DNA of 64,000 nt from Nitrospirae bacterium MYbinv3 (GTDB taxonomy: Bacteria > Nitrospirota > Thermodesulfovibrionia > Thermodesulfovibrionales > Magnetobacteriaceae): contig PEAB01000010.1 of the NCBI GenBank assembly GCA_002753395.1, forward strand, positions 1 to 64,000, in the 5' to 3' direction. Below the pieces are notes generated by a model. It did no database searches. It saw only the letters and a list, made by a program, of their open reading frames with translations, and had not been told where the DNA came from. Every line of letters starts with the position of its first letter. Within the stretch, counting starts at the first letter, position 1. Shown one piece after another: positions 18,910 through 47,876 of this stretch. The position numbers were made by a program, and so were the translations under genes.

Positions 18910-18927
18910 AGCGGTTAACACTGTTTG

Positions 18928-24036: not shown

Positions 24037-24113
24037 TTATTTCTTCCTTACTAAATCAAAACCGGTTGACTTAAGATTAAGAAACCATTATAAATCTCTT
24101 TGTCTTTCAATTG

Positions 24114-25863: not shown

Positions 25864-26005
25864 TCAAATAACTCGGATTGCATATCCCCCTTACATATAT
25901 ATCCCAGCTTCTTGGGCTTGGGGTGAAGCAAACCTTTCTCCTTTCTGTTATATCGGGAGGGGAGAGCGTATCTCCCTTTTCTACTTATTATACGCTCTGT
26001 GTTTC

Positions 26006-29277: not shown

Positions 29278-29398
29278 ATTAAGCTGTTATGAGGTTTTTA
29301 GCTCCTGACGATATCTTTGTTGAAAATGAAGATATCTGATTTTATGAACTAATATGCGGCAATGATTAGTTAGTACATTTGAGGTACAGCGGAGAGCT

Positions 29399-32300: not shown

Positions 32301-32761
32301 TTGTGTATTTCGTCAACGATGTAATGCCCCTGATACAACAGCGCATCCCCAATATCAAGCTCTACATAGTTGGCAACATGCCTCCTAAGAGCGTAACAGA
32401 CCTTAACAGTTATAACGTGATTGTAACCGGACACGTGGTGGACGTAACATCGTATTTTGTCAACTGCCGTGTATTTGTCTCCCCCCTGAGGTATGGAGCA
32501 GGCGTCAAGGGCAAGATAGCCCAGAGCATGAGCTACGGGCTTCCCGTTGTAACAACCTCCATAGGTGCAGAAGGGTTCGTCCTAGAAGATAGAAAAACTG
32601 CCCTAATCGCAGACAACCCTCAGCTTTTTGCAGACTGTACAGTAGAACTTTATTCAGATAAACGACTATGGAACAGACTATCAAGCAACAGCGTCAAATT
32701 CGTTGAAAATAACTTCTCCATAGACAAATCCACTGAAAGGATTTTGGACATCCTGGCTTAA
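29399..32761 (+). CDS. Three-module glycosyltransferase (GT2-GT2-GT4)
   Basis: 1120-residue cytoplasmic protein. Module 1 (about 5-230) is GT2: SLIVRTKDRPKMLVKAL and GFLDDDDDLLP. A helical, partly coiled linker follows (about 250-480). Module 2 (about 498-745) is GT2 of the rhamnosyltransferase-like kind: TSIIIPVHNN, FLNNDTMVAEGW, YYEDADLCFSVRKAGYK. Module 3 (about 764-1120) is GT4/GT1-like: VSPLRYGAGVKGKIAQSMSYGLPVVTT. Such fusions build surface polysaccharide or glycosylate flagellin or other proteins by adding several sugars. It stands alone, with repeats on both sides and CGGAG before the ATG. Confidence 0.88.
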   Translation: MNKNPLVSLIVRTKDRPKMLVKALKSIVAQTYRPIEVVLVNDGGCALNTKDIESNLGNCQCRYIPLEENHGRAHAGNVGLSNATGSYIGFLDDDDDLLPQHLDTLVTFLEISDFNIAYSDCEIVNKQYDIDKQDFIDAYSYVFYSEDFNYKTLLLENYIPIHCLLFKKSAIIGNSFDEGFDLFEDWDLLIRIATTYPFHHIKKTTAHYNNWDRFSQITHASENVKSDAYFKVLKKHRDKITEEIIHNYSLVGNKRKCSAVEATKISAERYDLMRKLSDEILKSSEQQNKIVVLEDINRQLNDKIHQLAVLDANKEVIRTLRFFLQTQKEQIENELPFSKIIMAYLEAIFAFIENMEHLSGKDYQPIINDFITLIHRMCEIERFNLNASASVFWKLAQRYYGLRDRFFPEGSRQKEIYNLLKRTISLLNTWQSLSTITKPIPHSKTPQTEILPPELTKATIDNTPTATPVDVPPKWPAKWINTSALAELPPLEFYDTDAPITSIIIPVHNNLLFTFNCLKSILENTTPHTYEVIVVNNASTDHTSSLLEGILNIRTISNDFNAGYGAACNQGAKEARGKYLLFLNNDTMVAEGWLDALLEVMSTNGKAGAVGSRLIYPDGRLQEAGGIIFSDGSGCNYGRGENADEPAYNYLKEVDYCSGASLLITRELFETLNGFDPQYDPAYYEDADLCFSVRKAGYKVIYQPKSVVVHFEGTTAGTDTSEGFKTFQEVNRSKFVHKWKHVLASQQRGIDELFVARERITGKIILIVDLKVPAFDKDASSVRMYQIIKIFLRYGHKVIYLPFDGQASQPYTDDLQQMGVEILHGKINAHDFLNRYGSFLDVVMLCRPMSIHYIDLVKTYAINARVLFDTVDLHFVREQRRAVLQNNTEMLQDAEQTKTIELSLCEKSDVTIVVSDVEKAILAKERPLCNIKVLPLIFEPVKVTNPFGRRNCLMFIGGFDHHPNEDGIVYFVNDVMPLIQQRIPNIKLYIVGNMPPKSVTDLNSYNVIVTGHVVDVTSYFVNCRVFVSPLRYGAGVKGKIAQSMSYGLPVVTTSIGAEGFVLEDRKTALIADNPQLFADCTVELYSDKRLWNRLSSNSVKFVENNFSIDKSTERILDILA

Positions 32762-32763
32762 TA

Positions 32764-32877
32764 AAGTACCTGTCCTTAATTAATTATATAAAAGAAAAGA
32801 GAAAGAAGTGAGGGCTTTGCCTCTGCCGCAGGGGTTCGCAACCCCCTCCCTATTTATCTTCACAGCCTTAAGTCAAC
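32764..32877. repeat. Dispersed palindromic repeat family 1, copy 6
   Basis: Has the flank AAGTACCTGTCCTTAATTAA (as copy 5), the hairpin CAGGGGTTCGCAACCCC, and the flank TTCACAGCCTTAAGTCAAC (related to copies 10 and 11). The GGGGTCAAGG core half is missing, so it is a partial or mosaic copy between the glycosyltransferase and copA. Confidence 0.75.
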
Positions 32878-32888
32878 AGCTTTACGTT

Positions 32889-35117
32889 TTACCGCAGCCT
32901 CATCGTTTTTAGCCGTAGGGAGTTGCTGACAACAGAGACGGAGCTAAAGGCCATCGCCAGGGACGCCAGCATGGGGTTGAGCAGCGGGCCGCCAAAGATA
33001 TAGAGCACACCCGCCGCAACGGGGATACCGATTACGTTGTAAAAGAAGGCCCAAAACAGATTCTGCTTGATAACCCTCATCGTAAGACGAGAGAGCTTTA
33101 TGGCGTCAACAACGCTTAAGAGGTTGCCCTTGATCAGCGTGATATCCGAGGACTCAATCGCCACATCAGTGCCCGTCCCAATAGCAATGCCTATATCGGC
33201 CTGTGCAAGGGCTGGCGCATCGTTAATCCCATCTCCCACCATAGCGACCAAGTTGTCATTGGACTTAAGCTGCCTTATGATATCGAGCTTTTGATGCGGC
33301 AACACCTCCGCAAAGAAGCGGGTGATTGAGACCTGCCTGGCTATGGCCTCAGCCGTCTTTTGATTGTCACCGGTGAGCATCACCACCTCTATACCTATCT
33401 CCTTAAGCCTCTCAACCGCAGCCGCCGACGTATCCTTTATCGTATCGGCGATGGCAAAGACAGCCGCCGCACAGCCGTCTACCGCCATGACCACAACGGT
33501 TTTGGCCTCCTGCGCAAGCCGCTCTATATCTGTCATCACGGTTGAACAATCAATGCCCTCTCTTACGAGAAGCTGCGTGTTTCCTATGACTATCAACTGA
33601 CCGGAGTCCTTCAAGCGCCCCTTCACACCACCTCCGGGAAGGGACAGGATGCCCTCCGTCTCAAGAAGATCAATGTTGTTGTCCTTTGCCATGTTGACAA
33701 TGGCAGCGCCAAGAGGGTGTTCTGAGTTCTTTTCAATAGAGGCTGCAAACCTAAGCGCCTGCTGTTGCTGTATATTACAACGGGGGGTTGTGACGATATC
33801 GGTAACCTTAGGCCTGCCTATCGTTATTGTGCCCGTCTTGTCCATGACGACCGTACGCAACTTATACGTCTTTTCGAGCGCCTCGGCATTTCTTATTAAT
33901 ATCCCGTGCTGTGCCCCCTTGCCGCTGCCAACCATAATAGCAGTGGGTGTTGCAAGCCCCAACGCACACGGACAGGCAATGATCAACACGGCTATGAAGT
34001 TCATCATCGCCATAGTAAATGACGGTCTTGGTCCAAGAAGGTACCACAAGAAAAAGGTCAGCACTGCTATAGATATAACAACGGGGACAAACACGGAGGC
34101 CACCTTGTCGGCAAACCTCTGTATGGGGGCCTTGGAGCCTTGCGCCTCCTCAATCAGCCTTATGATCCGCTCGATAGCGGAGTCGCTGCCTACCTTCAAT
34201 GCCCTCATCTTTAACACACTCAGACCGTTGACCGTACCCCCCATGAGCATGTCGCCTACGTTCTTATCAACCGGCAGGCTCTCCCCGGTCAACATGGATT
34301 CATCCACCGAGGACGCCCCCTCAACTACACAGCCATCAACCGCAATCCGCTCACCTGGGCGGATGACTACGATGTCCCCAACCTCGACATCTTCAACGGG
34401 GATATCTGTCTGTATGTCGCTGCGAATAACGCTGGCCGTCTTTGGCTGCATCCCTATAAGCCTCTTTATGGCCTCTGATGTGCGCCCCTTTGCCCTCAGC
34501 TCAAGCATCCTGCCAAGCAGGATCAGGGTGATAATCACTGCCGAGGTGTCAAAATACACGTGGGGGACGATCCCGCTTCCCTCAAGAATAGACGGGATAA
34601 ACGTTGCAACACAGCTATACGCGTAGGCCGAGGTGGTGCCAACCGCTATCAGCGTGTTCATGTTGGCAGAGAGGTGTCCCAGAGCAGAAAATGCCGCTCT
34701 GTAAAAACGCATCCCCAGCCACAACTGCACCGCAGTGGACAGGGAAAAAAGCACGTACCGGTCGGAGATAAACGCAAGCTCTGTCATAGACCCTGCCGCA
34801 ATGGGGACTGTCAATAGGGCGCTTATGATTAGATGAGTCTTGAGTTTGTTAAACTCTCTCTCTCTTTCGATCTTCTCTCTGTCGGTGCGGGATTGTGTGA
34901 TAAGCTCTACCTCGTAGCCGCTGTCAACGATAGCCTTCTTGATGCCCTCAAAATCCAGAAGCGCCGGCACATAGTCAATGGAGGCCCTCTCAGTGGCAAG
35001 GTTCACCGACACAGAGGTGACCCCATTGAGGGATTTCAGCGCCCTCTCTGCGGCTCCGACACAGGCAGCACAACTCATACCCTTTATGCGTACCTTAATA
35101 GAGGCTGTTTCGTTCAT
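32889..35117 (-). CDS. copA: Copper-exporting P1B-type ATPase
   Basis: 742 residues. One N-terminal HMA domain carries the metal site [10 protein letters not shown] (about 14-23). The membrane motif [13 protein letters not shown] and the phosphorylation site DKTGTIT identify a Cu+ exporter of the CopA type. The hinge [20 protein letters not shown] and the C-terminal membrane segment with NxxR-type residues are also present. The start [13 protein letters not shown] is at 35117. Family 1 repeat copy 7 abuts the start codon, so the Shine-Dalgarno region of copA lies inside the repeat palindrome. No CopZ or CueR gene is adjacent. Confidence 0.95.
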
Positions 35118-35150
35118 AGGGAACCAGTCCCCTTGACCCCATTATATATA
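35118..35150. repeat. Dispersed palindromic repeat family 1, copy 7, touching the copA start
   Basis: Reads AGGGAACCAGTCCCCTTGAC and on to ATTATATATAG. On the copA strand this is GGGGTCAAGGGGACTGG immediately before TTCCCT-ATG. It is the only plausible ribosome-binding region for copA. Confidence 0.8.
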
Positions 35151-35307
35151 GTTGTGCCCATAAATGCCTTAGGTCCCAGGCATAATATTTTTGCTTGCAT
35201 ATTTACCATTCGTTCGTATAACATTATCATTAGTGTAACACAGATGAGTATACAATACCATAAACGAAAGGGTTTTGGGTGCAGAGAGCATCTAATAAAT
35301 GATGTAT

Positions 35308-35316
35308 AAAAGGAGG
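35308..35316 (+). promoter_or_regulatory. Strong ribosome binding site for ferredoxin
   Basis: AAAAGGAGG lies about 12 bases upstream of the ferredoxin ATG at 35329, near-full complementarity to the 16S 3' end. Confidence 0.6.
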
Positions 35317-35328
35317 AATTAATTTTCT

Positions 35329-35517
35329 ATGAGTATGCCAGAAGTTGATCAAGACCTATGTACCGGCTGTGAGACCTGTGTCTCGCTGAGTCCTGATGTT
35401 TTTGAGATGCAGGGAGATAAGGCGTTTGCCTATGGTGCAGACAAAGCCGATTCCCTAAAGGATCAGATACAGGAAGCCATCGACACCTGCCCTGTTGAAG
35501 CTATTGCCTGGAAGTAG
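35329..35517 (+). CDS. Single-cluster [4Fe-4S] ferredoxin
   Basis: 62-residue acidic ferredoxin. The ligands are visible as LCTGCETC (Cys12, Cys15, Cys18) and a distal Cys54 in DTCPVEAI. The second CxxCxxC set of bacterial 2[4Fe-4S] ferredoxins is absent, so it is the monocluster type (Desulfovibrio/Thermotoga-like). It is a low-potential electron carrier with no obvious redox partner next to it. A GGGCTGC/GCAGCCC hairpin at 35531-35551 follows the stop without a T-run. Confidence 0.92.
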   Translation: MSMPEVDQDLCTGCETCVSLSPDVFEMQGDKAFAYGADKADSLKDQIQEAIDTCPVEAIAWK

Positions 35518-35530
35518 GTAATCCGGTTGG

Positions 35531-35551
35531 GGGCTGCATCTGAGGCAGCCC
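35531..35551 (+). terminator. Hairpin after the ferredoxin gene, possible terminator
   Basis: GGGCTGC-ATCTGAG-GCAGCCC forms a 7-bp perfect stem 14 bp after the ferredoxin stop. No T-tract follows, so intrinsic termination would be weak. Confidence 0.4.
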
Positions 35552-35675
35552 TCTCAACTACCGTATATAGTTCGGTAGAGTTTCAGGTGTGAGATCGAAT
35601 AGGTTTTATGGCGCCAAAGTAAACCAATATGGCGTGTTATCTATAAGTTAGGCTGCATTACTTGACGTAACATTT

Positions 35676-35960
35676 ATGAAAGAGCAAGAACTTGAAGAGA
35701 AGATAATATCCATACTTAAGCAGAATGATGCTACTATGATTGGTATCTTTGGTTCTTATGCCAGAGGTCAGGATACACCCAATAGTGATATTGATATACT
35801 TGTTAGTTTCAGCGGCATTAAAAGTCTCCTTGAACTTGTAAGAATAGAGAGGGAGTTATCTGAGGGCATTAATAAAAAGGTTGACCTGCTTACTGAGCAT
35901 TCCATCAGCCCATACCTTATAGGCAAAATAAAAAAGGAGCTTAAAGTAATATACCAGTGA
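35676..35960 (+). CDS. mntA: MntA-type nucleotidyltransferase antitoxin
   Basis: 94-residue minimal nucleotidyltransferase (MNT). The active-site motif GSYARG at residues 26-31 and the metal pair SDIDI (Asp38, Asp40) are intact. In characterised HepT/MntA pairs MntA adds AMP to a tyrosine of the HEPN toxin and so silences it. The stop overlaps the GTG start of the downstream HEPN gene (GTGA), the usual order and coupling for this module. Confidence 0.92.
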   Translation: MKEQELEEKIISILKQNDATMIGIFGSYARGQDTPNSDIDILVSFSGIKSLLELVRIERELSEGINKKVDLLTEHSISPYLIGKIKKELKVIYQ

Positions 35961-36304
35961 GTAAGGATAACGGGGTATACCTTCGTCATATCCTTGATGC
36001 AATTACTCAAATTAAGGCATATGTTAGGGGCATAGATTATGAGACTTTTAAGTTTAATCGTATGGTACAAGACGCAGTAATACGTCAATTTGAAATAGTT
36101 GGTGAGGCATCAAAAAATATTACATTAGAGTTTAAAATTAGCTACCCAGACATTGCATGGAAAGACCTTGTAGGAATGCGGAACAAACTCATCCACCACT
36201 ATTTTGGAGTTGATATAGATGTTATATGGAAATCCGTAAAACAGGACATACCGTTTTTGGAATCTAAAATTAAGGAGATACTTAGCAGTTATGAGCATAT
36301 ATAA
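35957..36304 (+). CDS. hepT: HEPN RNase toxin HepT (DUF86)
   Basis: 115 residues, GTG start. The RNase motif with the AMPylation site, RNKLIHHYFG, contains Arg75, His80 and Tyr82 and fits the RX4HXY pattern of active HepT toxins. The protein is a helical bundle. The toxin cleaves tRNA or mRNA unless the tyrosine is AMPylated by MntA. The 3' end overlaps the start of the MBL-fold gene by 14 bp. Confidence 0.92.
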   Translation: MSKDNGVYLRHILDAITQIKAYVRGIDYETFKFNRMVQDAVIRQFEIVGEASKNITLEFKISYPDIAWKDLVGMRNKLIHHYFGVDIDVIWKSVKQDIPFLESKIKEILSSYEHI

Positions 36305-37034
36305 GATACACCCGATAGTTATGGGGTCAAAGGTGTTTGACAAGACTATGATGACATACCAGTACGGATATGGTCAGACCTACTCTATACCAATCTATAG
36401 CTGGTATATAGAGGGCAGCGGGGTAAAGATACTGGTGGATACCGGAGAGATGAGTCCCTCGCGATCTGCAGCGGCAGAGAAGGCCATCGGGGGTAAGATA
36501 TACACATTTGAAGAGGGATTGGCCAGATGGGATATAGGCCCTGAGGATATAGACATCGTAATCCATACGCACCTGCACAATGACCACTGTGAAAACGACG
36601 AAAAATGTCTAAACGCTCAGATCTATGTCCATGAGGCGGAGATAGAGCGGATACACAACCCTCACCCCCTGGACTTTCGCTACATGGAGGACTACATACT
36701 AGAGGTGGAAAAGCAGGGACAATTGAAAACGATATCCGGCGATAAAGAGATCGTCAAAGACATCGTTGCCATACACACGCCGGCACACACTGAGGGCGGT
36801 ATGAGTATCCAGATACAGACCAGCAGCGGCAAAGCGATTATCACGGGATTTTGCTGCATAATGGAGAACTTCAATCCCCCGCCGGCCATCAGAGGCATGG
36901 ACATGGAGGTAATCCCCCCAGGTACACACGTCAACGTCTATGAGGCCTACGACATAATGATAAGGGTCAAGGAGATGGCAGACGTCTTAATTCCCTTTCA
37001 CGAGCCAAGTTTCGCCTCAGTTGATACCATATAA
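36291..37034 (+). CDS. MBL-fold hydrolase related to N-acyl homoserine lactonases
   Basis: 247 residues. The zinc motif HTHLHNDH (HxHxDH) lies near residue 91, and a further His is in IHTPAHTEGGMS. Overall order matches the AHL-lactonase-like MBL proteins. By eye alignment, the bridging Asp of the lactonases (as in TIDASYTKENF) is replaced by Gly in ITGFCCIMENF, so one metal ligand may be missing or supplied by Cys. The C-terminal His (IPFHEPSF) is present. The substrate is unknown. It overlaps hepT by 14 bp, but shared function is unlikely. Confidence 0.75.
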   Translation: MSIYKIHPIVMGSKVFDKTMMTYQYGYGQTYSIPIYSWYIEGSGVKILVDTGEMSPSRSAAAEKAIGGKIYTFEEGLARWDIGPEDIDIVIHTHLHNDHCENDEKCLNAQIYVHEAEIERIHNPHPLDFRYMEDYILEVEKQGQLKTISGDKEIVKDIVAIHTPAHTEGGMSIQIQTSSGKAIITGFCCIMENFNPPPAIRGMDMEVIPPGTHVNVYEAYDIMIRVKEMADVLIPFHEPSFASVDTI

Positions 37035-37096
37035 AGGCTCCTCCTCACTTGACGAGAGGGAGCAAGAGCGGGGACTAGTTTAAGACGGCCGATTCA

Positions 37097-37660
37097 GTGA
37101 CACAGAGGATTAAGATAATCGGCGGTAGTTTAAAGGGCAAGAAGCTGCCCTTCTCGATCCCCGACAAAAGGCTGCGTCCAACAAGCGCAAAGGTGCGCGA
37201 GGCGCTCTTTGATATCCTCAGAGAGAGGATCATGGGTGCGGCCTTTTTAGACCTGTATGCTGGCAGCGGCGCAGTCGGTTTTGAGGCCCTTAGCAGGGGC
37301 GCTGCAAAGGTCTACTTCGTTGATAATAGCCACACAGCCATAAGCGCCATAAAGGCCATCCCCCTGTTTTCAGGAAATAAGAGCAACAGGGCGATCGTCT
37401 CTACCGCCGCCGAGTCGCTAAAGAGGTTTGCAAAAAACGGTGAGACATTTGATGTAGTCTACGTAGATCCGCCATACCACTCAGATGAGATCGAGTTAGT
37501 GCTGCCACTGTTAGGCATAGACTCCGTACTGAAAGAAGATGCAGTGGTTGTTGTTGAGCATTTTTTAAAAACGGCTATGCCTGAGACTTCAGGAGCACTT
37601 ACGCTTAAGCGGCCATACAGATACGGCGACACGGTACTGAGCCTGTACACGTTCAAATAG
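37097..37660 (+). CDS. rsmD: 16S rRNA (guanine966-N2)-methyltransferase RsmD
   Basis: 187 residues, GTG start at 37097. Family blocks are IIGGSLKGKKLPF, RPTSAKVREALFDIL, the AdoMet site FLDLYAGSGAVGFEALSRGA, and the catalytic motif VVYVDPPYHSDE. It methylates G966 of 16S rRNA in the 30S subunit. It commonly sits beside coaD; here the next gene is a sensor kinase instead. Confidence 0.93.
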   Translation: MTQRIKIIGGSLKGKKLPFSIPDKRLRPTSAKVREALFDILRERIMGAAFLDLYAGSGAVGFEALSRGAAKVYFVDNSHTAISAIKAIPLFSGNKSNRAIVSTAAESLKRFAKNGETFDVVYVDPPYHSDEIELVLPLLGIDSVLKEDAVVVVEHFLKTAMPETSGALTLKRPYRYGDTVLSLYTFK

Positions 37661-37743
37661 AAGGGGAGATACAGCACCCGTTCATACATTTTTTATTGTG
37701 ATAGTGTACAATATAATTATAAAACAAAAGCTTTGCTAAACCA

Positions 37744-39159
37744 ATGACTGATAGTGTGCAGGATAAGAGTACCATAGTCGTAGTTGAAGACAGCATTACG
37801 CAGCGTGAGGCGCTTCGCCGGTTCCTCGGTAGTGGGGGGTATTGCGTAGTAACGGCTAAAAATGGAGTGGAAGGGTTAGATGCGATTCGGAGACTGAGAC
37901 CTGACCTTGTCATAAGCGATGTTGCTATGCCTTTGATGAATGGTTACGACATGTGCCGTGAGATCAAGGGCAGCGATGAATTAAGAGAAATACCGGTTAT
38001 TTTGCTTACTCAATTTTCAGCTACAGAGGACATTATAAATGGTCTTGACTGTGGAGCAGACAACTTTATCGTTAAACCTTACGATGAAAAGCATCTTTTA
38101 ACGCGCATAAAGTTTCTTCTTGCTTCAACAGAGATCCGTAAAAATGACCTTGTTGACATCGGCATAGATCTGCACTTAGGCGGAAAGAGTTATATCCTCA
38201 CCTCAAGCCGCAGACAGATATTGAACCTTCTGATATCCACTTATGAGAGTGCGGTGCATCAAAATCAGGTACTTATGAAGACCCAGATCGAGCTAAGTGA
38301 TAAGACCTTTCAGCTTGAGGAATTAAATAAGAGGCTTGAGGAGAGGGTTAATGAGGAGATAAGAAAGCGGATAGAGCATGAGTACATGCTTTTACAGCAG
38401 TCCAAGTTAGCAGCAATGGGGGAGATGATGGGAATGATTACCCACCAATGGCGACAACCCCTAAACAGCCTCGGTTTAATCCTGCAAGATATACAAGATG
38501 CATCGGCTTTTGGTGAATTGGACAAACAATATGTCGATAGCTCCATTACCAACGCTATGGAACAAATAGTGTTTATGACAAAGACAATAGATGATTTCAG
38601 AGAGTTTTACAGACCAAGCAAGGTTAAAAAGAGTTTTGACGTACCTTGTGCATTGAAAGAGGTGCTTTCAATAACACAGTTTCAGCTTAAAAATCAGAAC
38701 ATAAGTTATAGAGTTCAATGTACATGCGCTAAAGAGACCGTCATATATGAAAACACCTTGGAAATACCCAATTGCGGTGACGGTTCGATGAGTGTCTACG
38801 GTTATCCAAACGAACTCAAGCATGTGCTTATGAATATTCTGCATAATGCAAGAGACGTGATCATCAATAATAAGAAGAAGGACAGCGCATCCGGCCTCGT
38901 CTATGACGGCTTAATATCAATACTCCTTTTCTTAGAAGATAATAACGTAATTATCAAGATAAGCGACAATGGCGGAGGCATCGACGAGGCAAACATGGAT
39001 AAGATCTTTGAGCCATACTACACCACAAAGGATTCATCAGGAACCGGCCTCGGTCTGTACCTCTCAAAGTTGATAGTGGTCAATAACATGAATGGCAAGG
39101 TATACGCTGAAAATAATGAAAATGGCGCCACCTTCACAATAGAGTTAAAATGTGTGTAA
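37744..39159 (+). CDS. Receiver-histidine kinase hybrid
   Basis: 471 residues. An N-terminal receiver domain (about 8-130) has Asp59 (LVISDVAMP). A coiled-coil linker at about 175-225 (QIELSDKTFQLEELNKRLEE) leads to a HisKA domain with His234 in MITHQWRQPLNSL. The HATPase has N (LMNILHNARDVI), G1 (ISDNGGGID) and G2 (GTGLGLYLSK) boxes. There is no membrane segment, so it is cytoplasmic and controlled by phosphorylation of its own receiver. The HQWRQPL H-box is typical of this REC-HK group. Confidence 0.92.
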   Translation: MTDSVQDKSTIVVVEDSITQREALRRFLGSGGYCVVTAKNGVEGLDAIRRLRPDLVISDVAMPLMNGYDMCREIKGSDELREIPVILLTQFSATEDIINGLDCGADNFIVKPYDEKHLLTRIKFLLASTEIRKNDLVDIGIDLHLGGKSYILTSSRRQILNLLISTYESAVHQNQVLMKTQIELSDKTFQLEELNKRLEERVNEEIRKRIEHEYMLLQQSKLAAMGEMMGMITHQWRQPLNSLGLILQDIQDASAFGELDKQYVDSSITNAMEQIVFMTKTIDDFREFYRPSKVKKSFDVPCALKEVLSITQFQLKNQNISYRVQCTCAKETVIYENTLEIPNCGDGSMSVYGYPNELKHVLMNILHNARDVIINNKKKDSASGLVYDGLISILLFLEDNNVIIKISDNGGGIDEANMDKIFEPYYTTKDSSGTGLGLYLSKLIVVNNMNGKVYAENNENGATFTIELKCV

Positions 39160-39191
39160 TGTAAAAAATAGTAAGATAGTTATATCTATAG

Positions 39192-39330
39192 TTTTGCACT
39201 TTCTGGATTCCTGCTCAGGTCAGGGGCAGGAATAGAGGGGCTAAATGCGCCATTTCCTGTCATTCTCTCGTAAGCGGGAATCTATTTTCAAGAGCTGCAT
39301 AAAATGCTGGTTTATAAAAAAAGTGCAAAA
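39192..39330. repeat. 139-bp element with 11-bp perfect terminal inverted repeats
   Basis: TTTTGCACTTT at 39192-39202 is the exact reverse complement of AAAGTGCAAAA at 39320-39330. Inside are CTGGATTCCTG and GTAAGCGGGAATCT, motifs shared with the repeats at 27.9, 28.1, 41.3 and 51.5 kb. No coding content is supported; the ORF at 39245 merely reads through it. It looks like a MITE. Confidence 0.65.
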
Positions 39331-39372
39331 GTATTGTTATATCATATCAAGAAAAGATAAGGAGGTAATGCT

Positions 39373-39705
39373 ATGGGTCAAAGGCGCGGGTCTTATAAAC
39401 CAAGACGGGTTGTTAAAAAGACCTTGGGGGATAGGTCAATTGAAGAGATAGTGCGGCAGTTAAAGGCAAACGGTCAGTCAGAATCCAACTACAGAGAGGA
39501 GTCGTTAAGTATTCACGGTCTTATCTGTGCTAAGTGCGGCAGGGAGTTCAGCAATAAGGACAGGAATCTGCTTACCGTACACCACAAGGATGGAAACCAC
39601 TACAACAACCCGCAAGATGGTTCTAATTGGGAAAACCTGTGTGTCTACTGTCACGAGGACGAGCACTCCAGGGGGATTCTGGCTGATTACCTGAGTAACC
39701 AATAA
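39373..39705 (+). CDS. HNH endonuclease, YajD-like
   Basis: 110 residues. The beta-beta-alpha-metal motif is spelled CAKCGREF...LLTVHHKDGNHYNNPQDGSNWENLCVYCHEDEH, with zinc-binding CxxC pairs and the catalytic HH. The N-terminus (MGQRRGSYKPRRVVKKTLGD) is basic. The family is widespread and mostly uncharacterised. It is preceded by AAGGAGG. Confidence 0.85.
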   Translation: MGQRRGSYKPRRVVKKTLGDRSIEEIVRQLKANGQSESNYREESLSIHGLICAKCGREFSNKDRNLLTVHHKDGNHYNNPQDGSNWENLCVYCHEDEHSRGILADYLSNQ

Positions 39706-39750
39706 ACCTGCAAGAACTTGAATACAAAAACGAACTAACAGCTTCAATGA

Positions 39751-41154
39751 ATGAGTAAAGTTGCAGTTGTTATTACGCTGAGTCTTTTCCTGATTAGCAG
39801 CACAATTGCTCAGGGCGGCAGTGCTAACGGGAAAACGATAGTGTTTACTCAACCCTCAAGCTCTCCTCCTTTTGCTTACTCGGATGAGGCTGGACAGCCC
39901 AGAGGTATAGTTATTGATTACTGGAATCTCTGGGCGCTAAGAAATAACATCAAGATACAGTTTGTATTAGAGGAGTTTCAAGACAGTCTGCAGAAGGTCA
40001 AAGACGGCAAGGCAGAGGTCATTGCAGGCATCCTGCAATCAGAGGAGAGAGAAAAGTACCTGGAATTTTCAGATGGTTTTATTGATCTTAAGATATGCCT
40101 ATACGTACCTCAGGGTATAGAGACTAAAAAGCTCCAAGACCTCAAATCCTTGAGCATCGCAATAATACGCGGCCACGCAGCTATAGATTACATAAAAAAC
40201 TCTTATCCTCATTTCAACATTGTACTGTTTAATAACTACGAGGAGATGTTTAAAAGCCTGAGTGATAACGAAACTGTCTTTGTAAGCGATTACTATACCG
40301 CTAAGCACTATATGACACAGAACGGATCGCTTGGTAAGTATAAGTTTGTTAAAACGCTGTTTAATGGGAGCCTGAGGGCAGCTGTAAGACGTGGTAATAC
40401 CGACATGCTGGCGCTCATCAACGACGGGATGCAAAAGATAGATCGAGGCGATATCGAGAAGATATATAACGCGTGGTTTGACCACAGCCCCAAATTTCCA
40501 GACTGGTTGAGCAAACTGGTGGTGGGGGCTGGGTTTTCTGCACTTATTCTAGGACTATTGAGCTATATCTTTGTCTTGAGGGTTCAACTAAAGCGAAAGA
40601 CCACAAGCCTTGAGGACGCCCTTGAGCGTATAAAGAAAAAGGACGAAACACTGGATCTCTTATCAAGGACAGACCCGTTAACAGGGCTTTCAAACCGCCT
40701 TGATATGTATGATAAGTTCAAATACCATCAGTCTATCTTTAAAAGATACGGCAGATGTTTCTCCATTGTTCTGTGCAGCATAGATGACCTCAAGGAGTTT
40801 AACGCCGCCTATGATATGGAGTGTGGCCTTAAGATGATAGTGGAGGCCGCAAATAGGTTAAGGGTCTCTCTCAGGCGTCAGGACTTTGTCGGCAGATGGT
40901 CTATGGAGGAGTTTATCCTCCTTCTGCCAGAGACAGACCTTGATGGCGGCTCAAAGATTGCGGAAAAACTCCGTAAGGAGATCCAGGGTCGCAAGTTCAT
41001 CTACAAAGGTAAGGAGATACCTGCAACCATGACCTTTGGCGTTAGCGTTTATGACGCCGGCATGCCCATAGACGATTGTATAAAACAGGCCGATGAATGT
41101 CTCTACATAGGCAAAAAAAGCGGATCTAACATGGTGGTCGCCTTCAAACCATAG
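39751..41154 (+). CDS. Periplasmic binding domain - membrane - degenerate GGDEF protein
   Basis: 467 residues. The signal peptide is followed by a family 3 solute-binding domain (about 28-245; TQPSSSPPFAYSDEAGQPRGI), one membrane span (about 255-275) and a coiled linker. The cytoplasmic GGDEF domain starts at about 300 (SRTDPLTGLSNR). The active-site loop reads SMEEF instead of GGDEF, so cyclase activity is probably lost. The RxxD inhibitory site (RRQD) five residues before it is kept. It is thus likely a c-di-GMP receptor or ligand-sensing scaffold (inference). Confidence 0.85.
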   Translation: MSKVAVVITLSLFLISSTIAQGGSANGKTIVFTQPSSSPPFAYSDEAGQPRGIVIDYWNLWALRNNIKIQFVLEEFQDSLQKVKDGKAEVIAGILQSEEREKYLEFSDGFIDLKICLYVPQGIETKKLQDLKSLSIAIIRGHAAIDYIKNSYPHFNIVLFNNYEEMFKSLSDNETVFVSDYYTAKHYMTQNGSLGKYKFVKTLFNGSLRAAVRRGNTDMLALINDGMQKIDRGDIEKIYNAWFDHSPKFPDWLSKLVVGAGFSALILGLLSYIFVLRVQLKRKTTSLEDALERIKKKDETLDLLSRTDPLTGLSNRLDMYDKFKYHQSIFKRYGRCFSIVLCSIDDLKEFNAAYDMECGLKMIVEAANRLRVSLRRQDFVGRWSMEEFILLLPETDLDGGSKIAEKLRKEIQGRKFIYKGKEIPATMTFGVSVYDAGMPIDDCIKQADECLYIGKKSGSNMVVAFKP

Positions 41155-41590
41155 GGGGGAGAAAAAAGAAGGGGGTGCTTGTACAACTATTGTATTTAAT
41201 CGAATTGACATCCGCTTTAAACAGACCCAATAGACGTGCTTTTATGACATTAGGTTTGGGGAAATAGTGATGACAAACTTGAGAAGTTTTACTCACAAAA
41301 AACGTATTCTGTGAACAAAACTTGTGTGCATAAGAAAATCGTGGGAAATTATGTCATTCCTGCGAAAGCAGGAATCTATTAGCTTGTGGATTGCCCTGTC
41401 TTGCATGGCAATGACAAGACGCCCCATAAGTTTTATATGCACCCCAAAATTCAGTGAGAATTGCTGGCCGTGAAGTCTTACAATTGTGATGTTATTTCCT
41501 TTTGTGCTAAAATCCATCATGAGTGCATTCTCATTAACGGATGAGTTTAGAAAAAGACAAACATCCTTCAAGTTATGAATATAGATAAGT
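41155..41590. other. 436-bp intergenic region holding a family 2 repeat
   Basis: No gene was seen. The family 2 element occupies 41326-41444. The rest is AT-rich. An inversion breakpoint between hyfC and hyfE could lie here or in the following DUF4258/DUF2283 pair (inference). Confidence 0.5.
41326..41444 (+). repeat. Dispersed repeat family 2, copy a
   Basis: Runs from GTGCATAAGAAAATCGTGGG through GTCATTCCTGCGAAAGCAGG and TTGCCCTGTCTTGCATGGCA to TTATATGCACC. The ends are short inverted repeats (GTGCATA/TATGCAC). A second copy is at 51536-51680, and end fragments lie near 4974 and 48270. Confidence 0.8.
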
Positions 41591-41851
41591 ATGTTGAGAC
41601 TAATTAGATTATCGGTTCATGCTAGAGAGCAGCTAAGCTATAGAGGTGTGCTAGCGGATGAGGTTAATGAGACCATAAGAAGCTCAACATGGGAGACGGT
41701 TAACCGTGGAAAGCTGCAAGCAAGTAAGGACTTTATATTTGAAAAGGAATGGAATAAGAAATATTACAAGTATAAGCAGGTTAAAACGATATTTGTTGAA
41801 GAGGCAACAGAGATTGTTGTAATCACAGTATATACATATTATCTTAACTGA
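41591..41851 (+). CDS. DUF4258 protein, toxin-like
   Basis: 86 residues: VHAREQLSYRGVLADEVNETI and the C-terminal VVITVYTYYL match the small RelE/BrnT-like DUF4258 proteins, which typically neutralise or process RNA as toxins. It is followed 11 bp later by a DUF2283 gene, a recurrent pairing that behaves like a toxin-antitoxin or mobile module by context. Function is unproven. Confidence 0.75.
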   Translation: MLRLIRLSVHAREQLSYRGVLADEVNETIRSSTWETVNRGKLQASKDFIFEKEWNKKYYKYKQVKTIFVEEATEIVVITVYTYYLN

Positions 41852-41862
41852 GAGGCGGAGAA

Positions 41863-42078
41863 ATGAGAATAACGTATGATCCAGAAGTTGATGCCCTTTA
41901 TATACGTTTTATAGAGACTACAGTAACAACCAAACATGTGGCAGAAGGAGTTGCAATCGACTATGATCCGGAAGGAAGAATTGCAGGGATTGAAATCTTA
42001 GACGCCATAATGCGTGTTGGAGGTAAAGATGTTTTCAGAAAAATAACGTTAGAGGACCTTGCACTTCAGACTACCTAA
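41863..42078 (+). CDS. DUF2283 protein, probable partner/antitoxin
   Basis: 71 residues: MRITYDPEVDALYIRF and GVAIDYDPEGRIAGIEILDA are the DUF2283 signature. It ends one base before the hyfE ATG (TAA-A-ATG), so the pair has become fused to the front of the hyfEFGI operon and may influence its translation. Confidence 0.85.
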   Translation: MRITYDPEVDALYIRFIETTVTTKHVAEGVAIDYDPEGRIAGIEILDAIMRVGGKDVFRKITLEDLALQTT

Positions 42079-42079
42079 A

Positions 42080-42745
42080 ATGTACATAGACCTGGTGCAT
42101 CACATAAACAGTTTTTTGGCTGCCTTTATCCTGCTTTCCGCCTTTGGGATGCTGGTCCAGAGGAGGATGTCGGGGCTTATCTTCCTGTTTACGTGGCAGG
42201 GGTTGTTCCTGTCCGTAAACACAGCTCTGGTTGGATTTGTCGTCAATAGACACCACCTCTATATCTCCTCGGCCTTGACGCTGGTGTTGAAGGTGTTTCT
42301 CTTGCCGTATATACTGCATACCCTAGTTAAGCGCCTGAAGATCCACAAGGAGGTGGAGACCATCTTAAATGTCCCCACAACTATGCTAATGGGGATAGCC
42401 CTGGTCATATTCTCCTACCACCTGGTTTCGCCTATCAGGGAACTTTCGCCACTTGTTACACGTTCGATCCTGGCGGTTGCCTTTGCCTCTGTAATGTTGG
42501 GACTGCTGATGATGATCACAAGGAAAAATGCGGTCACTCAGATAATCGGCTTTCTCGCAATGGAGAACGGACTCTTCTTTGCGGCCACCAGTGCAACCTA
42601 CGGGATGCCACTGTTGATTGAGCTTGGCATAGCCCTGGACATCCTCATCGCTGCATTTATATTTGGCATATTTTTCTTTCACATACACTCAAACTTTGAT
42701 ACCTTAGACGTGGAACAGCTGGCAAGACTCAAGGAGGTAGACTAG
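42080..42745 (+). CDS. hyfE: Hydrogenase-4 component E-like membrane subunit
   Basis: 221 residues with about seven hydrophobic spans, the expected size of HyfE. This subunit combines NuoK-like and extra helices (IGFLAMENGLFFAAT resembles the NuoK Glu helix). I moved the start from 42059 (TTG) to the ATG at 42080, which gives MYIDLVHHINSFL. The end overlaps the AAGGAGG site for hyfF. It belongs with hyfF, G, I here and hyfB, C at the other end of the window. Confidence 0.88.
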   Translation: MYIDLVHHINSFLAAFILLSAFGMLVQRRMSGLIFLFTWQGLFLSVNTALVGFVVNRHHLYISSALTLVLKVFLLPYILHTLVKRLKIHKEVETILNVPTTMLMGIALVIFSYHLVSPIRELSPLVTRSILAVAFASVMLGLLMMITRKNAVTQIIGFLAMENGLFFAATSATYGMPLLIELGIALDILIAAFIFGIFFFHIHSNFDTLDVEQLARLKEVD

Positions 42746-42747: not shown

Positions 42748-44193
42748 GTGTCCATTGTCGTATTACTGTGTGTCCCTCTACTGGCTGCCATTGTACTGGC
42801 CTTTGTGAAGGAGGGTAAGGCAGCATCCGATTTAAACGTTGCAGGCTCTATTGCCACATTTTTTGCGGGTGTGTGGTTGGCGTGGGAGGTACATGAACAT
42901 GGCCCGATGCTTGTGGCCAAGAACCTTTTTTTTGCCGACGCCTTAAGTGTGTATCTAGCCCTTATAACCGCCTTTATTGATATGACGACAGCCATGTTTA
43001 GCCGCAGATACATGTCTTTTGAGCAGCAGCAGGGGCTCTTGTCTCAACGGCGAATGAGATACTACCACTCGATGTTTCAGTTGTTTGTATTTACCATGCT
43101 TGTGGCTCTCCTTACAAACAACGTCGGCATACTGTGGATTGCAATGGAGATGGCCACATTGTCAAGCGTCTTACTGGTATCGTTGTACCGCACACCGTCA
43201 TCGATAGAGGCGGCTTGGAAGTACTTTATCCTCTGTGGCGTGGGCATTGCACAGGCGCTCTTTGGGACGATACTGCTCTATCTGGCAGCCGAAAAGGTGC
43301 TTGGAGAGGGCGGGGACGCCCTTCTGTGGACAAACCTTAATCAGGTAAAAAGCTTGATGGAGCCAAACGTGTTGTCTCTGGCCTTTGTGTTTCTCATGGT
43401 TGGGTATGGCACAAAGATGGGTCTTGTCCCAGTGCACCACTGGCTGCCTGATGCCTACAGCGAGGGAGCCTTTCCAGCAGCCATCCTGTCAGGCCTTCTC
43501 CTAAACGTAGCGCTCTATGCCTTGGTCAGGTTCAAGGTGCTTGTAGATGGTTCATTGGGCACACACCATGCCGGCAATATTATGATGGGCTTTGGACTGC
43601 TTTCGCTTATGATATCAGCCTTTTCAATCTTGAGACAGAAGGATATAAAACGGATGTTTGCCTATTCCTCCATAGAGCACATGGGCATAGCGACGTTTGC
43701 CTTTGGCCTTGGCGGGGCTGTAGCCACATTTGGTGCCCTGCTACACATGTTCATGCACAGCCTGACAAAGGCGTCGTTGTTTTTTACCTGTGGCCATGCT
43801 ATACAGATGCACCAGACATCGGAGATGACTAGGATTAGGGGGCTTATCAGGGGTAATCCGCTTGTAGGCTGGGGGCTGATGTTTGGGGTCATGGCCATTG
43901 TAGGGATGCCTCCGTTTGGGATATTTACGAGTGAGTTCTTGATCCTGACAGAGACCGTGAAGGATGCGCCGTATCTGACCCCTTTTCTTCTTGTGGGCCT
44001 TGCTGTGGCCGCTGCAGCGCTCTTCAGAAGGGTTCAGTCGATGGTGATGGCAGATGCACCCTCTTATCAGAAATCGATAAACACAGCTTACGTGCCAATA
44101 GTCCTACACCTGGCGTTAATACTGGCTGTTGGAATCTACATGCCTGATATCCTCAACCAGTGGCTTAAAAACATAGTGGAATATATGAAGTAA
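42748..44193 (+). CDS. hyfF: Hydrogenase-4 component F-like proton-translocating subunit
   Basis: 481 residues, GTG start with AAGGAGG nine bases upstream. It belongs to the NuoL/M/N antiporter-like family. Signatures include GILWIAMEMATLSSVLLVSLYRTPSSIEAAWKYF, HHWLPDAYSEGAFPAAILSGLLLNVALY and DIKRMFAYSSIEHMG. About fourteen membrane segments are likely. It is expected to form one ion channel, with HyfB forming another. It is co-transcribed with hyfE. Confidence 0.92.
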   Translation: MSIVVLLCVPLLAAIVLAFVKEGKAASDLNVAGSIATFFAGVWLAWEVHEHGPMLVAKNLFFADALSVYLALITAFIDMTTAMFSRRYMSFEQQQGLLSQRRMRYYHSMFQLFVFTMLVALLTNNVGILWIAMEMATLSSVLLVSLYRTPSSIEAAWKYFILCGVGIAQALFGTILLYLAAEKVLGEGGDALLWTNLNQVKSLMEPNVLSLAFVFLMVGYGTKMGLVPVHHWLPDAYSEGAFPAAILSGLLLNVALYALVRFKVLVDGSLGTHHAGNIMMGFGLLSLMISAFSILRQKDIKRMFAYSSIEHMGIATFAFGLGGAVATFGALLHMFMHSLTKASLFFTCGHAIQMHQTSEMTRIRGLIRGNPLVGWGLMFGVMAIVGMPPFGIFTSEFLILTETVKDAPYLTPFLLVGLAVAAAALFRRVQSMVMADAPSYQKSINTAYVPIVLHLALILAVGIYMPDILNQWLKNIVEYMK

Positions 44194-44374: not shown

Positions 44375-45745
44375 TTGTTTAAAGGAAGAAAAAATGTAGT
44401 TATCGTACTAATAGTTATCGTTCTTATCTTGTCTCACGCCTCTATCAACGACGCAATGAAGAAATCATCGGATGAGTTTAGTCTTAAGGCCTCAAAAAGT
44501 ACGACGGAACATCCACCAGCTTATGTCTTCGATGGTGTAACAGATGGAGATGGTTTCTGGGAGCCTACCGGGGCTTACCCCTTCTGGATAGAAGTCATTT
44601 ATGGCAGCTCAAAGATCATAAAAAAGTATTCTCTATGCTCAGGGTCTGATGCAGAGGAGCGGATGCCTGTTTCATGGCAGCTACATGGTTCTGATGATGG
44701 CCTTACATGGGAAATTTTAGATATAAGGGCAAATGTAAAGTCGTGGAAAAAGAGACAGATACGGGACTATACCGTCTTAAAACCTAAAGCCTTTAAACAC
44801 TATCGTTTGCGTTTTACAGAAGGTGGTAATCCGACGGTCATGCGCATTTATGAGATTAATTTATATGATGATGATGGCACTAATAGTATGAAGGGTGGTT
44901 TTATGGAGCTGCCTGATGGCTCAATTGGATGGCCAAATGTAAGGATGACAAATAGAGTGGGTGGAGGTGGATTGTCCGATCTTAAAGGCGTAGGGAAACG
45001 TGCGCAGCCCGGTGGTACGATTGCTATACAGCCAAGAGGAGATTATATGCGTGGAGCAATAGATATGCTCCCTACGGCAGGGAAGTTACCCCAGGCCGAC
45101 GCCCTGGCTGAGGTCACCCTCCATAGGATTGTGCCGTCAAAAAGTGGATTTGAGATGGTTCGTTACGCTGCCCTTGCTACCGATACAGTTCCTTTTGGTA
45201 TTATTGTTGAGTCTGGCGGGGCAGGCAAGGCCAGACCTTTTGTATTTTGGACGTTAAGAGAGGAAACTGCGGACTTTTCTAAAATGCTATTTTCTGAGGC
45301 ATTCCGCATTACAGAAGACGGGTTAGTGCAAGTAGGTCGAAAACGTGGCAGCGGTACTGCTGACAAGATTCTCAAAGACGACCCCGCTTTGGTTGATAGT
45401 AAGCCGGTAGATGCGCTATTTCTTGAAAAACAAGACCCTGGCAAACAAGGGGTTTATAATTCAGACTATCTTAAGATCGTCGCTAAAAGCAGAGACTCTC
45501 GAAAGGTTCATCGCTATGAATGGCGATTGAACGTACAAATTAATGACAAGAACAACGATGCCGCCCTTGTAATCTCTTCAAGTAAGGACGGTTCTTCATA
45601 TAATGACAAACTAATAGTGCGACATGATGGCAATGTTGAATTATCAGACCCAGAAGCAGGCATTGTTATGTCCTCACCTGGTGGTAAACGATTTAAAATC
45701 ACTGTCGATGACGCAGGCAGGCAGAAAACCTCTCCTATAAAGTAG
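44375..45745 (+). CDS. Secreted discoidin (F5/8 type C)-like protein
   Basis: 456 residues. A TTG at 44375 is the only plausible start that keeps the signal peptide (FKGRKNVVIVLIVIVLILSHAS). Residues about 32-165 resemble a galactose-binding/discoidin fold: SKSTTEHPPAYVFDGVTDGD, WQLHGSDDGLTWEILD, and HYRLRFTEGGNPTVMRIYEINLYD. The rest (GSIGWPNVRMTNRVGGGG onward) is beta-rich and not recognised; it resembles phage tail-fibre or bacterial surface repeats. It lies between hyfF and hyfG with its own promoter, so it is probably an insertion rather than a complex subunit. Confidence 0.65.
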   Translation: MFKGRKNVVIVLIVIVLILSHASINDAMKKSSDEFSLKASKSTTEHPPAYVFDGVTDGDGFWEPTGAYPFWIEVIYGSSKIIKKYSLCSGSDAEERMPVSWQLHGSDDGLTWEILDIRANVKSWKKRQIRDYTVLKPKAFKHYRLRFTEGGNPTVMRIYEINLYDDDGTNSMKGGFMELPDGSIGWPNVRMTNRVGGGGLSDLKGVGKRAQPGGTIAIQPRGDYMRGAIDMLPTAGKLPQADALAEVTLHRIVPSKSGFEMVRYAALATDTVPFGIIVESGGAGKARPFVFWTLREETADFSKMLFSEAFRITEDGLVQVGRKRGSGTADKILKDDPALVDSKPVDALFLEKQDPGKQGVYNSDYLKIVAKSRDSRKVHRYEWRLNVQINDKNNDAALVISSSKDGSSYNDKLIVRHDGNVELSDPEAGIVMSSPGGKRFKITVDDAGRQKTSPIK

Positions 45746-45768: not shown

Positions 45769-47367
45769 ATGAACATCCTTAAAGACGCAATAACCTCAGC
45801 CTGCTATATATCAACGGGCCGCACCTGTATTGGGGCGGAGGTAAAATATGATACGAGTCAATACCCCGCAACGGTGCCATCTTGCATAGTTCCAAGGGCA
45901 GGCTTTGTTGCGGCGGCACGGGTGATGAATAGTGTTTATGCCTTTTTGGTTGCCCAATGGGCAGGCGATGAGACTCAGAGTCGTGATTGTTTTTCAGTAT
46001 ATGCCTGTTACAGGAAGGAGTCGGAGTACCTCATCATAAGAACCGACGTCCCTGCGACTGATCCTACCTTCCCAAGCCTCACATCCGAGTACGTCTGTGC
46101 CTATCGTTTCGAGCGGCAGATACACAGCCTTATGGGTATCACACCGGTTGGCCATCCGGACTTACGGCCGTGGATAAAGTTTGAAGACTGGCCGCAGGAT
46201 GCGTGGCCGCTGCGTAAGTCCTTTGACGCGTTGCAGACCATGCCCCGAGTCGATGGACAATACCAGTGGGTCAGGGCAGAGGGTGAGGGTGTTTACGAGA
46301 TACCCGTAGGTCCGGTACATGCCGGCATTATTGAGCCCGGGCACTTTCGATTTCAGGCTGTGGGTGAACACGTCATAAATCTTGAGGAGCGGCTGGGCTA
46401 CGTCCACAAGGGCATTGAAAAGAGGTTTGAGTCGCTTTCCTGGCATGACGGCGTGAGGCTTGCCGGCAGGGTCTCTGGCGATACTACCGTTGCGCACAGC
46501 CTTGCCTACTGCATGGCGCTTGAAGCCATGACACAGTGCGTCATACCTCAGAGGGCACACTGGCTGCGGGCGCTCTTTCTTGAACGTGAGCGGATAGCCA
46601 ATCACCTTGGCGACTTAGGTGCTATATGCAACGACGTGGCCTTTGCACTGATGCTGTTTCAGTTTTCAAGGCTAAAGGAGATGATTGTCCGCACTAATCT
46701 TAGGCTCTTTGGTCACAGGTTTATCATGGACAGGGTTATACCAGGCGGGGTGGCCGTTGATGTCGATTCCTCTGGTGTCAAGGACGTGCTGGTGGAGATG
46801 ACACAGTTAGAAGACGAGTTTGAGAGGCTCGTTGCTATCTATGATAGCAATCCCTCTTTAGAAGATAGAGTAAGGGACACAGGTATCCTTGCGCCTGAGA
46901 AGGCACGGGAGTTGGGCGTCGTTGGTATTGTTGCGCGGGCCAGCGGTTTGAATGTAGACTGCCGTATCCACTATCCCTTCCCTCCGTACGACCGTTTTGA
47001 GGTCAAGGTACCGGTTTTAGTCTCCGGCGACGTTCATGCGAGGGCGTGGGTCAGGGTCGAGGAGGTTAGGCAGTCCATAGTCTTAATCCGCAGGATACTC
47101 AACAGCCTGCCTGTGGGAGACATATCAACTGCTGTCGTGCAACCACAAGCGGGCAGGGCTGGATTTGCAGCCGTTGAGGGGTGGCGCGGGGAGATCATCT
47201 ACTGGCTTAGCAGCGACCCGCAGGGACAGGTAAATCGCTGTATGGTCAGGGACCCATCCAGTGTAAACTGGCTGGCTCTGGAGCAGGCTATCCCAGGCAA
47301 TATAGTGCCTGACTTTCCGCTCTGCAACAAGAGTTTTAATCAATCGTATTCAGGGCACGATTTATGA
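45769..47367 (+). CDS. hyfG: Hyf/Ehr large subunit (NuoC-NuoD fusion) without nickel-binding cysteines
   Basis: 532 residues. The N-terminal NuoC-like part (about 1-165) is followed by a NiFe-hydrogenase large-subunit/NuoD-like domain (VGPVHAGIIEPGHFRF, LEERLGYVHKGIEKRFE). Aligned by eye to E. coli HycE, the L1 motif RVCGICGFAHS is RVSGDTTVAHS here (46468-46500). The L2 motif DPCYSCTDR is NQSYSGHDL at the C-terminus. All four Cys ligands of the NiFe site are replaced, so H2 chemistry is not expected. This is the pattern of energy-converting hydrogenase-related complexes. It overlaps hyfI by ATGA. Confidence 0.88.
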   Translation: MNILKDAITSACYISTGRTCIGAEVKYDTSQYPATVPSCIVPRAGFVAAARVMNSVYAFLVAQWAGDETQSRDCFSVYACYRKESEYLIIRTDVPATDPTFPSLTSEYVCAYRFERQIHSLMGITPVGHPDLRPWIKFEDWPQDAWPLRKSFDALQTMPRVDGQYQWVRAEGEGVYEIPVGPVHAGIIEPGHFRFQAVGEHVINLEERLGYVHKGIEKRFESLSWHDGVRLAGRVSGDTTVAHSLAYCMALEAMTQCVIPQRAHWLRALFLERERIANHLGDLGAICNDVAFALMLFQFSRLKEMIVRTNLRLFGHRFIMDRVIPGGVAVDVDSSGVKDVLVEMTQLEDEFERLVAIYDSNPSLEDRVRDTGILAPEKARELGVVGIVARASGLNVDCRIHYPFPPYDRFEVKVPVLVSGDVHARAWVRVEEVRQSIVLIRRILNSLPVGDISTAVVQPQAGRAGFAAVEGWRGEIIYWLSSDPQGQVNRCMVRDPSSVNWLALEQAIPGNIVPDFPLCNKSFNQSYSGHDL

Positions 47368-47876
47368 TAAGTATACTAAATCAGATATTTCGCACAGGTA
47401 TAGTAACTGAGCCGCTTTCTCAGCTGCCTGATGCAACAGTCATCAAAGAAACAGTCAGCCAGTTAGAAGAGGGAATAAAGAAGCGTTTTAGGCAGAGTCT
47501 CACCATACGGCAGGTGGATGCCGGCTCGTGCAACGGCTGCGAGCTTGAGATCCATGCCATTAACAATCCTATTTATAATTGCGAAAGGTTTGGTATACAT
47601 TTTACCGCCTCACCGAGGTTCGCTGACATGCTCTTGGTTACCGGGCCGGTAACGAGAAACATGGAGACAGCCCTCATCAGGACGTACAACTCCACCCCCG
47701 CGCCAAAACTCGTGGTAGCTGTAGGTGATTGTGGCTGTAGCGGTGGAATCTTTGGAGAGAGCTATGCCTGCCTTGGAGGGATCGACAAGGTGATTCCCGT
47801 GAACGTCTACATCCCAGGCTGCCCTCCAACCCCCGATGTCTTATTAAACGGTATACTCCGCGCTATTGGAGGATAG
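47364..47876 (+). CDS. hyfI: Hyf/Ehr small FeS subunit (NuoB-like)
   Basis: 170 residues. The proximal [4Fe-4S] ligands are intact: AGSCNGCELE, VGDCGCSGGIF and IPGCPPTPDVLLNGIL. It is shorter than E. coli HyfI, but near NuoB size. It forms the junction between the large subunit and the membrane arm. Conserved FeS cysteines next to a large subunit with none of the NiFe ligands indicate that electron transfer is kept while the hydrogen site is lost. Confidence 0.92.
   Translation: MISILNQIFRTGIVTEPLSQLPDATVIKETVSQLEEGIKKRFRQSLTIRQVDAGSCNGCELEIHAINNPIYNCERFGIHFTASPRFADMLLVTGPVTRNMETALIRTYNSTPAPKLVVAVGDCGCSGGIFGESYACLGGIDKVIPVNVYIPGCPPTPDVLLNGILRAIGG

Follow-up and report, generated by a model that had tools for sequence, protein, structure and literature searches.

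Ehr (energy-converting/Ech hydrogenase-related) complexes have been known as a class since about 2004 and were reportedly first named in the Geobacter group, for GSU0739-0745. The closest solved fold is that of E. coli formate hydrogenlyase/hydrogenase-4 (7z0s), which has four NiFe Cys, a 32-aa C-terminal extension, HycB/HycF-type ferredoxin subunits and Hyp genes. Complex I (NuoB/NuoCD) has the same fold without NiFe ligands. The Ehr complex of G. sulfurreducens (GSU0739-0745; EhrA-1, EhrC, EhrL, EhrS) consists of large and small subunits with NuoL-like and HyfE-like membrane subunits (PMC7894505). In Nitrospira Ehr (comammox and nitrite oxidisers) the CxxC motifs are missing, and the function of Ehr is undescribed in the literature (PMC10284858, PMC12342949). 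Pyrococcus MBS (Mbx), a member of the complex I superfamily with an antiporter arm, has retained two of the four NiFe Cys, and three Cys hold its proximal cluster (PMC7684303).

Genes for six subunits of a related complex were found in the window, which is the whole stretch of 64,000 nucleotides analysed here, together with one interposed gene.

470..1414, minus strand: hyfC, NuoH/HycD-like membrane anchor with the E-channel charged residues kept (PF00146)
1411..3465, minus strand: hyfB, antiporter-like subunit with GluTM5, LysTM7, LysTM8 and GluTM12 kept (NF005086, 807 bits, cut-off 667)
42080..42745, plus strand: hyfE, NuoK/HyfE-like membrane subunit with ATG at 42080 (NF008556, 102.5 bits, below the cut-off of 136; conserved in relatives)
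42748..44193, plus strand: hyfF, antiporter-like subunit with GluTM5, LysTM7 and GluTM12 kept (NF005045, 708.5 bits, cut-off 543)
44375..45745, plus strand: interposed gene between hyfF and hyfG, F5/8 type C (discoidin-like) domain protein (PF00754)
45769..47367, plus strand: hyfG / ehrL, large subunit of 532 aa (open reading frame; Pfam PF00329/PF00346; HycE as best PDB match; tree)
46468..46500, plus strand: RVSGDTTVAHS, residues 234-244 of HyfG, at the N-terminal CxxC position (alignment to HycE)
47338..47364, plus strand: NQSYSGHDL, residues 524-532 of HyfG, at the C-terminal CxxC position; the protein ends at this motif
47364..47876, plus strand: hyfI / ehrS, small subunit with one [4Fe-4S] cluster (PF01058; HycG, 7z0s_G, as best PDB match)

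These genes almost certainly encode a bona fide Ehr complex of the lineage that includes Geobacter Ehr, since the NiFe ligands and HypD are missing, the antiporter-like and NuoH-like subunits are intact, and HyfG groups with Geobacter in a clade with 100/100 support; the match to the Ehr class proposed in the first-pass annotation was borne out on the same grounds. The Geobacter sequences of this clade (the GSU genes themselves were not in the comparison) carry RVSGDST and NQSYSG, and their operon is clustered, whereas that of the window genome is split. A related lineage with RVSGDT and SYAG, presumably that of Nitrospira, forms a separate clade (100/98) and has SYAGNDL in place of the SYSGHDL of the window lineage. 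Subunit order and part of the second shell are shared with the E. coli complexes, but four NiFe Cys, a C-terminal extension, a HycB/HycF-type subunit and HypD were not found for the window complex. It differs from MBS in having none of the four NiFe Cys and a four-Cys cluster, and from complex I in lacking the quinone ligands and an N module while keeping a loop Glu and a hydrogenase-type His.

HyfG is composed of a 30-kDa and a 49-kDa domain (PF00329/PF00346), and its top PDB sequence match was E. coli HycE (7z0s_E, 219.6 bits). In the alignment of the two proteins, RVSGDTT corresponds to RVCGICG and SFNQSYSG to SLDPCYSC, with no gap in these segments, which confirmed that both motifs align residue by residue; the replacement of the four Cys by S, T, S and G, as first annotated, proved exact (C241 to S236, C244 to T239, C531 to S526 and C534 to G529, HycE to HyfG). 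No Cys of HyfG lies at a NiFe ligand position in the alignment to HycE, and no substitute Cys pair that could fill the site was found there. The best conserved Cys, C519 (90/90 family members), has Ile as its HycE counterpart. NiFe ligation by two CxxC motifs, as in hydrogenases, is absent from the predicted HyfG protein. With the AlphaFold monomer model as query, HycE was ranked first by Foldseek (TM 0.82); confidence of the model is low at the site segments 162-215 and 518-532, and the pocket is not resolved in it. Around the lost ligands, E189 (loop Glu, HycE E193), R473 (canopy Arg, HycE R478) and H243 are as in hydrogenases and differ from the Nuo residues, and two further second-shell positions are changed (canopy D529 of HycE to N524, S283 to N278); the roles of the HycE residues were taken from PMC9474812. 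The positions of the complex I quinone ligands are occupied by I188 (Nuo His) and G237 (Nuo Tyr), both invariant in the clade.

In NiFe hydrogenases the C-terminal extension is the part cut off by a maturation protease. Past the last motif, this extension was 0 aa in every Cys-less Ehr protein versus 22-32 aa in the full-length CxxC relatives of the alignment (E. coli HycE and HyfG, and one group in family f9 of the same order). PF00374, HypD and a CxxC large subunit were not found in the 96.6%-complete window genome, whereas control genomes were positive; the search for maturation genes was for HypD alone. Three PF00346 proteins are encoded in this genome, namely NuoD, HyfG and a second Cys-poor homologue. 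Among the 29 relatives carrying the EhrA lineage, some of them with incomplete genomes, HypD was absent from 10. In a tree built without the motif columns and rooted with Nuo as the outgroup, all 50 Cys-less Ehr rows formed one clade (100/99) with the CxxC rows outside, and the HyfG clade consisted of 22 rows (100/100) including Geobacter and Desulfuromonadaceae. HyfG was thus placed outside the H2-active sequences, which were sampled by E. coli Hyc/Hyf, one family f9 group and MbhL only; MbhL and one Ehr row (L146) have long branches, and their exact placement is unsure. The CxxC pair, the maturation extension and HypD that mark a group 4 [NiFe] hydrogenase are, judged from the sequences, all lacking.

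The relatives of HyfG (n = 90, 58-84% identity) belong to Nitrospirota, Geobacter, Desulfuromonadaceae, other 'Deltaproteobacteria' and Nitrospinota bins. With few exceptions they share the substituted motifs, R-x-S-G-D-[TS]-T and NKSFNQSYSG[HN]D, and each of S236, G237, D238, S526 and G529 is common to at least 98% of the family members. Comparison of the window genome with three sister genomes gave dN/dS values of 0.04-0.14 for hyfB, C, E, F, G and I, against 0.035-0.054 for the complex I gene nuoD, with dS between the window genome and the other genomes near saturation. The six hyf genes are under purifying selection, and the low dN/dS together with the Cys-less motifs shared by 90 relatives indicates that HyfG is maintained and not decaying.

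The small subunit HyfI is a 20-kDa domain protein (PF01058) whose gene overlaps hyfG by 4 bp (ATGA). As the first reading of the sequence had it, the [4Fe-4S] Cys are retained: C56, C59 and C123 were invariant (88/88), and C153 was present in 87/88, the remaining one being a gap. The C56-x-x-C59 spacing is of the MBH/HycG type and is not that of MBS or complex I (comparison with PMC7684303), and the CC pair of complex I NuoB is missing. Taken with the loss of the quinone ligands from HyfG, the MBH-like spacing means that the sequence speaks for neither an MBS-like nor a quinone-like chemistry.

The membrane subunits HyfB, C, E and F are intact, as had been annotated. The genes hyfB and hyfC are not neighbours of the others, being located at 470-3465 on the minus strand, and the splitting and rearrangement of the operon had gone unnoticed in the first-pass annotation. 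In HyfB and HyfF, the Glu and Lys of the pump are retained, as in E. coli HyfB/HyfF. In HyfC the E-channel charged residues are as in HyfC/HycD in 66/66 family members, and H204, H211 and R221 are Ehr-typical.

The usual gene order, hyfBCEFGI, is contiguous in about 60 genomes. Adjacent pairs were kept in 63/63 (BC), 65/67 (CE), 68/70 (EF), 77/79 (FG) and 73/78 (GI) relatives, and several of the exceptions are genomes of the genus to which the window belongs. In the window, hyfBC (470-3465, minus strand, with a 4-bp overlap of the two genes) is separated by 38.6 kb from hyfEFGI (42080-47876, plus strand), and the sister species have three to four hyf loci. In sister genome G001, hyfB and hyfC are on one contig with small genes in between, hyfG lies 12 kb from hyfEF and on the other strand, a third contig carries hyfI, and two transposase genes follow hyfF. 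In G002, hyfBC, hyfEF-F5/8-hyfG and hyfI are carried by three different contigs; this genome also has a canonical operon, 66% identical to the scattered set, and the two sets may have arisen by duplication or by transfer. In G003 (56% complete), hyfG is on a different contig from hyfI. The F5/8-domain gene (dN/dS 0.116) occupies the same position in G002, and nothing was found that ties its product to the Ehr complex.

A single inversion of about 470..42058 would restore the gene order and is the simplest account of the split in the window. Misassembly is an unlikely source of the displacement of hyfBC: hyfB is also away from hyfE in G001, a GDP-sugar epimerase-type gene adjoins hyfB in both this genome and the window genome, and hyfI is on other contigs in G002 and G003. 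A lateral origin of the genus copy, considered in view of the two sets in G002, was unsupported (AU p = 0.72 for one clade with the other copies of the family). The presumed breakpoint of the inversion is occupied by a DUF4258 and DUF2283 gene pair (41591-42079), possibly toxin-antitoxin, which immediately precedes hyfE. A REP-like palindrome, AAGGGGACYRGTCCCCTT, was present in seven exact copies in the 64-kb window (0 expected) and in 10 copies with up to 2 mismatches.

387-404, 15498-15515, 20817-20834, 28055-28072, 44242-44259, 48229-48246 and 61674-61691 of the window: exact copies of AAGGGGACYRGTCCCCTT

Copies stand just 3' of hyfC (387), hyfF (44242) and hyfI (48229); the repeats are common across the window and are therefore not claimed as breakpoints. 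In hyfB of G002 (L156 3625-5427, contig C5), an insert of about 200 bp contains a AAGGGGACYRGTCCCCTT variant at 4183 and leaves the frame open.

HTH_17 + PTS_EIIA_2 is a domain type linked to ion homeostasis, and a regulator of this type is encoded just upstream of hyfB in 20 related loci (for example L050 3831-4715, L128 2667-3338 and L101 3432-4184). The regulator was absent from the window genome, G001 and G003 and was found in G002 only beside the canonical operon. One Nitrospirota bin (L080 304-12045) has a partial EhrB-type operon (hyfE-F-G-I) head to tail with a complete EhrA-type operon. Between the two hyf loci of the window, CRISPR-Cas-like genes (Cas1-, Cas4- and Cas3-like, then effector and Cas6-like open reading frames) were recognised by eye from the translations at 7200-15094.

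With regard to electron input, it is true, as first noted, that the window contains no NuoEFG-type module. Complex I of the ordinary kind is encoded elsewhere in the window genome, on contig C72 (NuoE, F and G) and contig C86 (NuoK-L-M-N). A four-cysteine ferredoxin motif was not found in the open reading frames of the window, no NuoI/HyfH-type wire is encoded near the window genes, and the search for a [4Fe-4S] ferredoxin-type subunit near the genes in 80 related loci gave only 10 scattered, apparently unrelated matches. It seems that in the window complex HyfI itself receives the electrons, either from a soluble donor or from a subunit encoded elsewhere. A second, divergent Ehr-like complex of the window genome (34% identity) is also scattered, with hyfC-E-F-G on contig C95 at about 3700-8294 (L122) and a small-subunit relative, fused to a ferredoxin-type domain, on contig C81 (L159, 6079-6816). 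In its HyfF, GluTM5 is replaced by Ala and LysTM7 by Gln, and the pump of this second complex may be inactive. A lone antiporter homologue on contig C72 (L124, 4447-6378) is without LysTM7, and its membership in the second complex is a guess.

On balance, the Ehr complex, as a member of the complex I superfamily, probably works as a redox-driven ion pump and acts on a substrate bound in the pocket that the NiFe site has left. Its soluble electron donor, which most likely resembles ferredoxin, would dock on HyfI itself, as the neighbourhood encodes no NuoI/HyfH-type wire. The HyfI cluster would then exchange electrons with a small substrate in the pocket, where S236, D238, T239, T240, N524, S526 and S528 would be the polar residues and protons would be taken up via the retained loop glutamate E189. 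A conformational or charge change would pass from there through the HyfC E-channel to the antiporter-like HyfF and HyfB. In this scheme, the direction of electron flow, the donor, the substrate and the coupling are the parts that we infer, and the scarcity of ferredoxin-type subunits near the 80 loci is odd for such a pump; a search of the literature brought up no assay of redox-coupled ion translocation by an Ehr complex like this one. The same superfamily, the shared pocket and the intact pump arm would also suit a quinone reductase like complex I, in which the pocket is the quinone site and a ferredoxin-like donor reduces menaquinone; this is doubtful, because the equivalents of Nqo4 His38 and Tyr87 are the clade-invariant I188 and G237 where Nuo rows have H and Y, E189 and H243 are of hydrogenase type, and HyfI is without the complex I CC pair. 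If the soluble arm were only a sensor, the complex could be a non-redox or regulated cation/proton antiporter, as the intact antiporter-like subunits, the missing electron-input gene and the regulator upstream of hyfB in 20 relatives might suggest. Such an antiporter would need neither the invariant FeS Cys nor a hydrogenase second shell, and with the regulator missing from the window genome it is distinctly unlikely.

A separate formate dehydrogenase feeding the complex (FDH-Ehr) has been proposed for Margulisbacteria (PMC6349859), and the GSU0739-45 proteins were more abundant in formate-grown G. sulfurreducens (PMC7894505). On contig C117, the window genome itself encodes a homologue of FDH alpha whose gene has a TGA in frame, possibly for selenocysteine. 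As the surroundings of the hyf genes in the window showed no fdh gene, and formate dehydrogenase homologues are near universal with and without Ehr (57/61 relatives), which makes their co-occurrence with Ehr uninformative as a clue, we regard a formate-linked module as unlikely; it is a hypothesis about the donor and is compatible with a redox pump. Sulfane-sulfur reduction at the proximal [4Fe-4S] cluster deserves mention since, among the solved relatives, MBS alone combines partial loss of the NiFe site with a demonstrated activity, but its catalysis relies on an iron without a Cys ligand that results from a shortened motif (PMC7684303). HyfI has C-x-x-C and two further Cys with MBH spacing, and MBS itself keeps 2/4 NiFe Cys, so an MBS-like reductase is very improbable. 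That the genes are a decaying hydrogenase or a pseudogene set is hardly credible: the operon is broken in the genus and transposase genes lie beside hyfF in G001, but all reading frames are open, dN/dS is low and the Cys-less motifs are alike in the 90 relatives.

Beyond the redox-driven ion pump, we put forward tentatively, as possible though not the likelier outcome, that the EhrA lineage is a distinct energy-coupling machine, in which a metal-free pocket (RxSGD[TS]T/NQSYSG/E189/R473) would carry out a reaction unique among complex I relatives with a soluble donor docked without an FeS wire, and that in this genus assembly would be independent of operonic co-expression, with the six subunits supplied from two to four loci. 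The Ehr class was already known; to our knowledge, from partial coverage of the literature, what is new is a residue map for the whole family, the finding that the maturation peptide is missing throughout the Ehr lineages compared, and the breaking up of the operon within a single genus. Ehr is present in about half of Nitrospirales genomes (PMC12342949). These conserved, as yet unexplained complexes are also common in Geobacter and Thermodesulfovibrionales. Their function becomes testable by point mutations in a Geobacter laboratory strain through the residue map, which records the loss of four ligands, the retention of part of the second shell and a clade-specific invariant pocket, and the window genome is a clean natural case because Ehr is present while an NiFe hydrogenase and HypD were not detected. 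The broken operon, whose subunits stay conserved although their genes are scattered over separate loci in the sister species, is a natural experiment on which subunits need co-expression.
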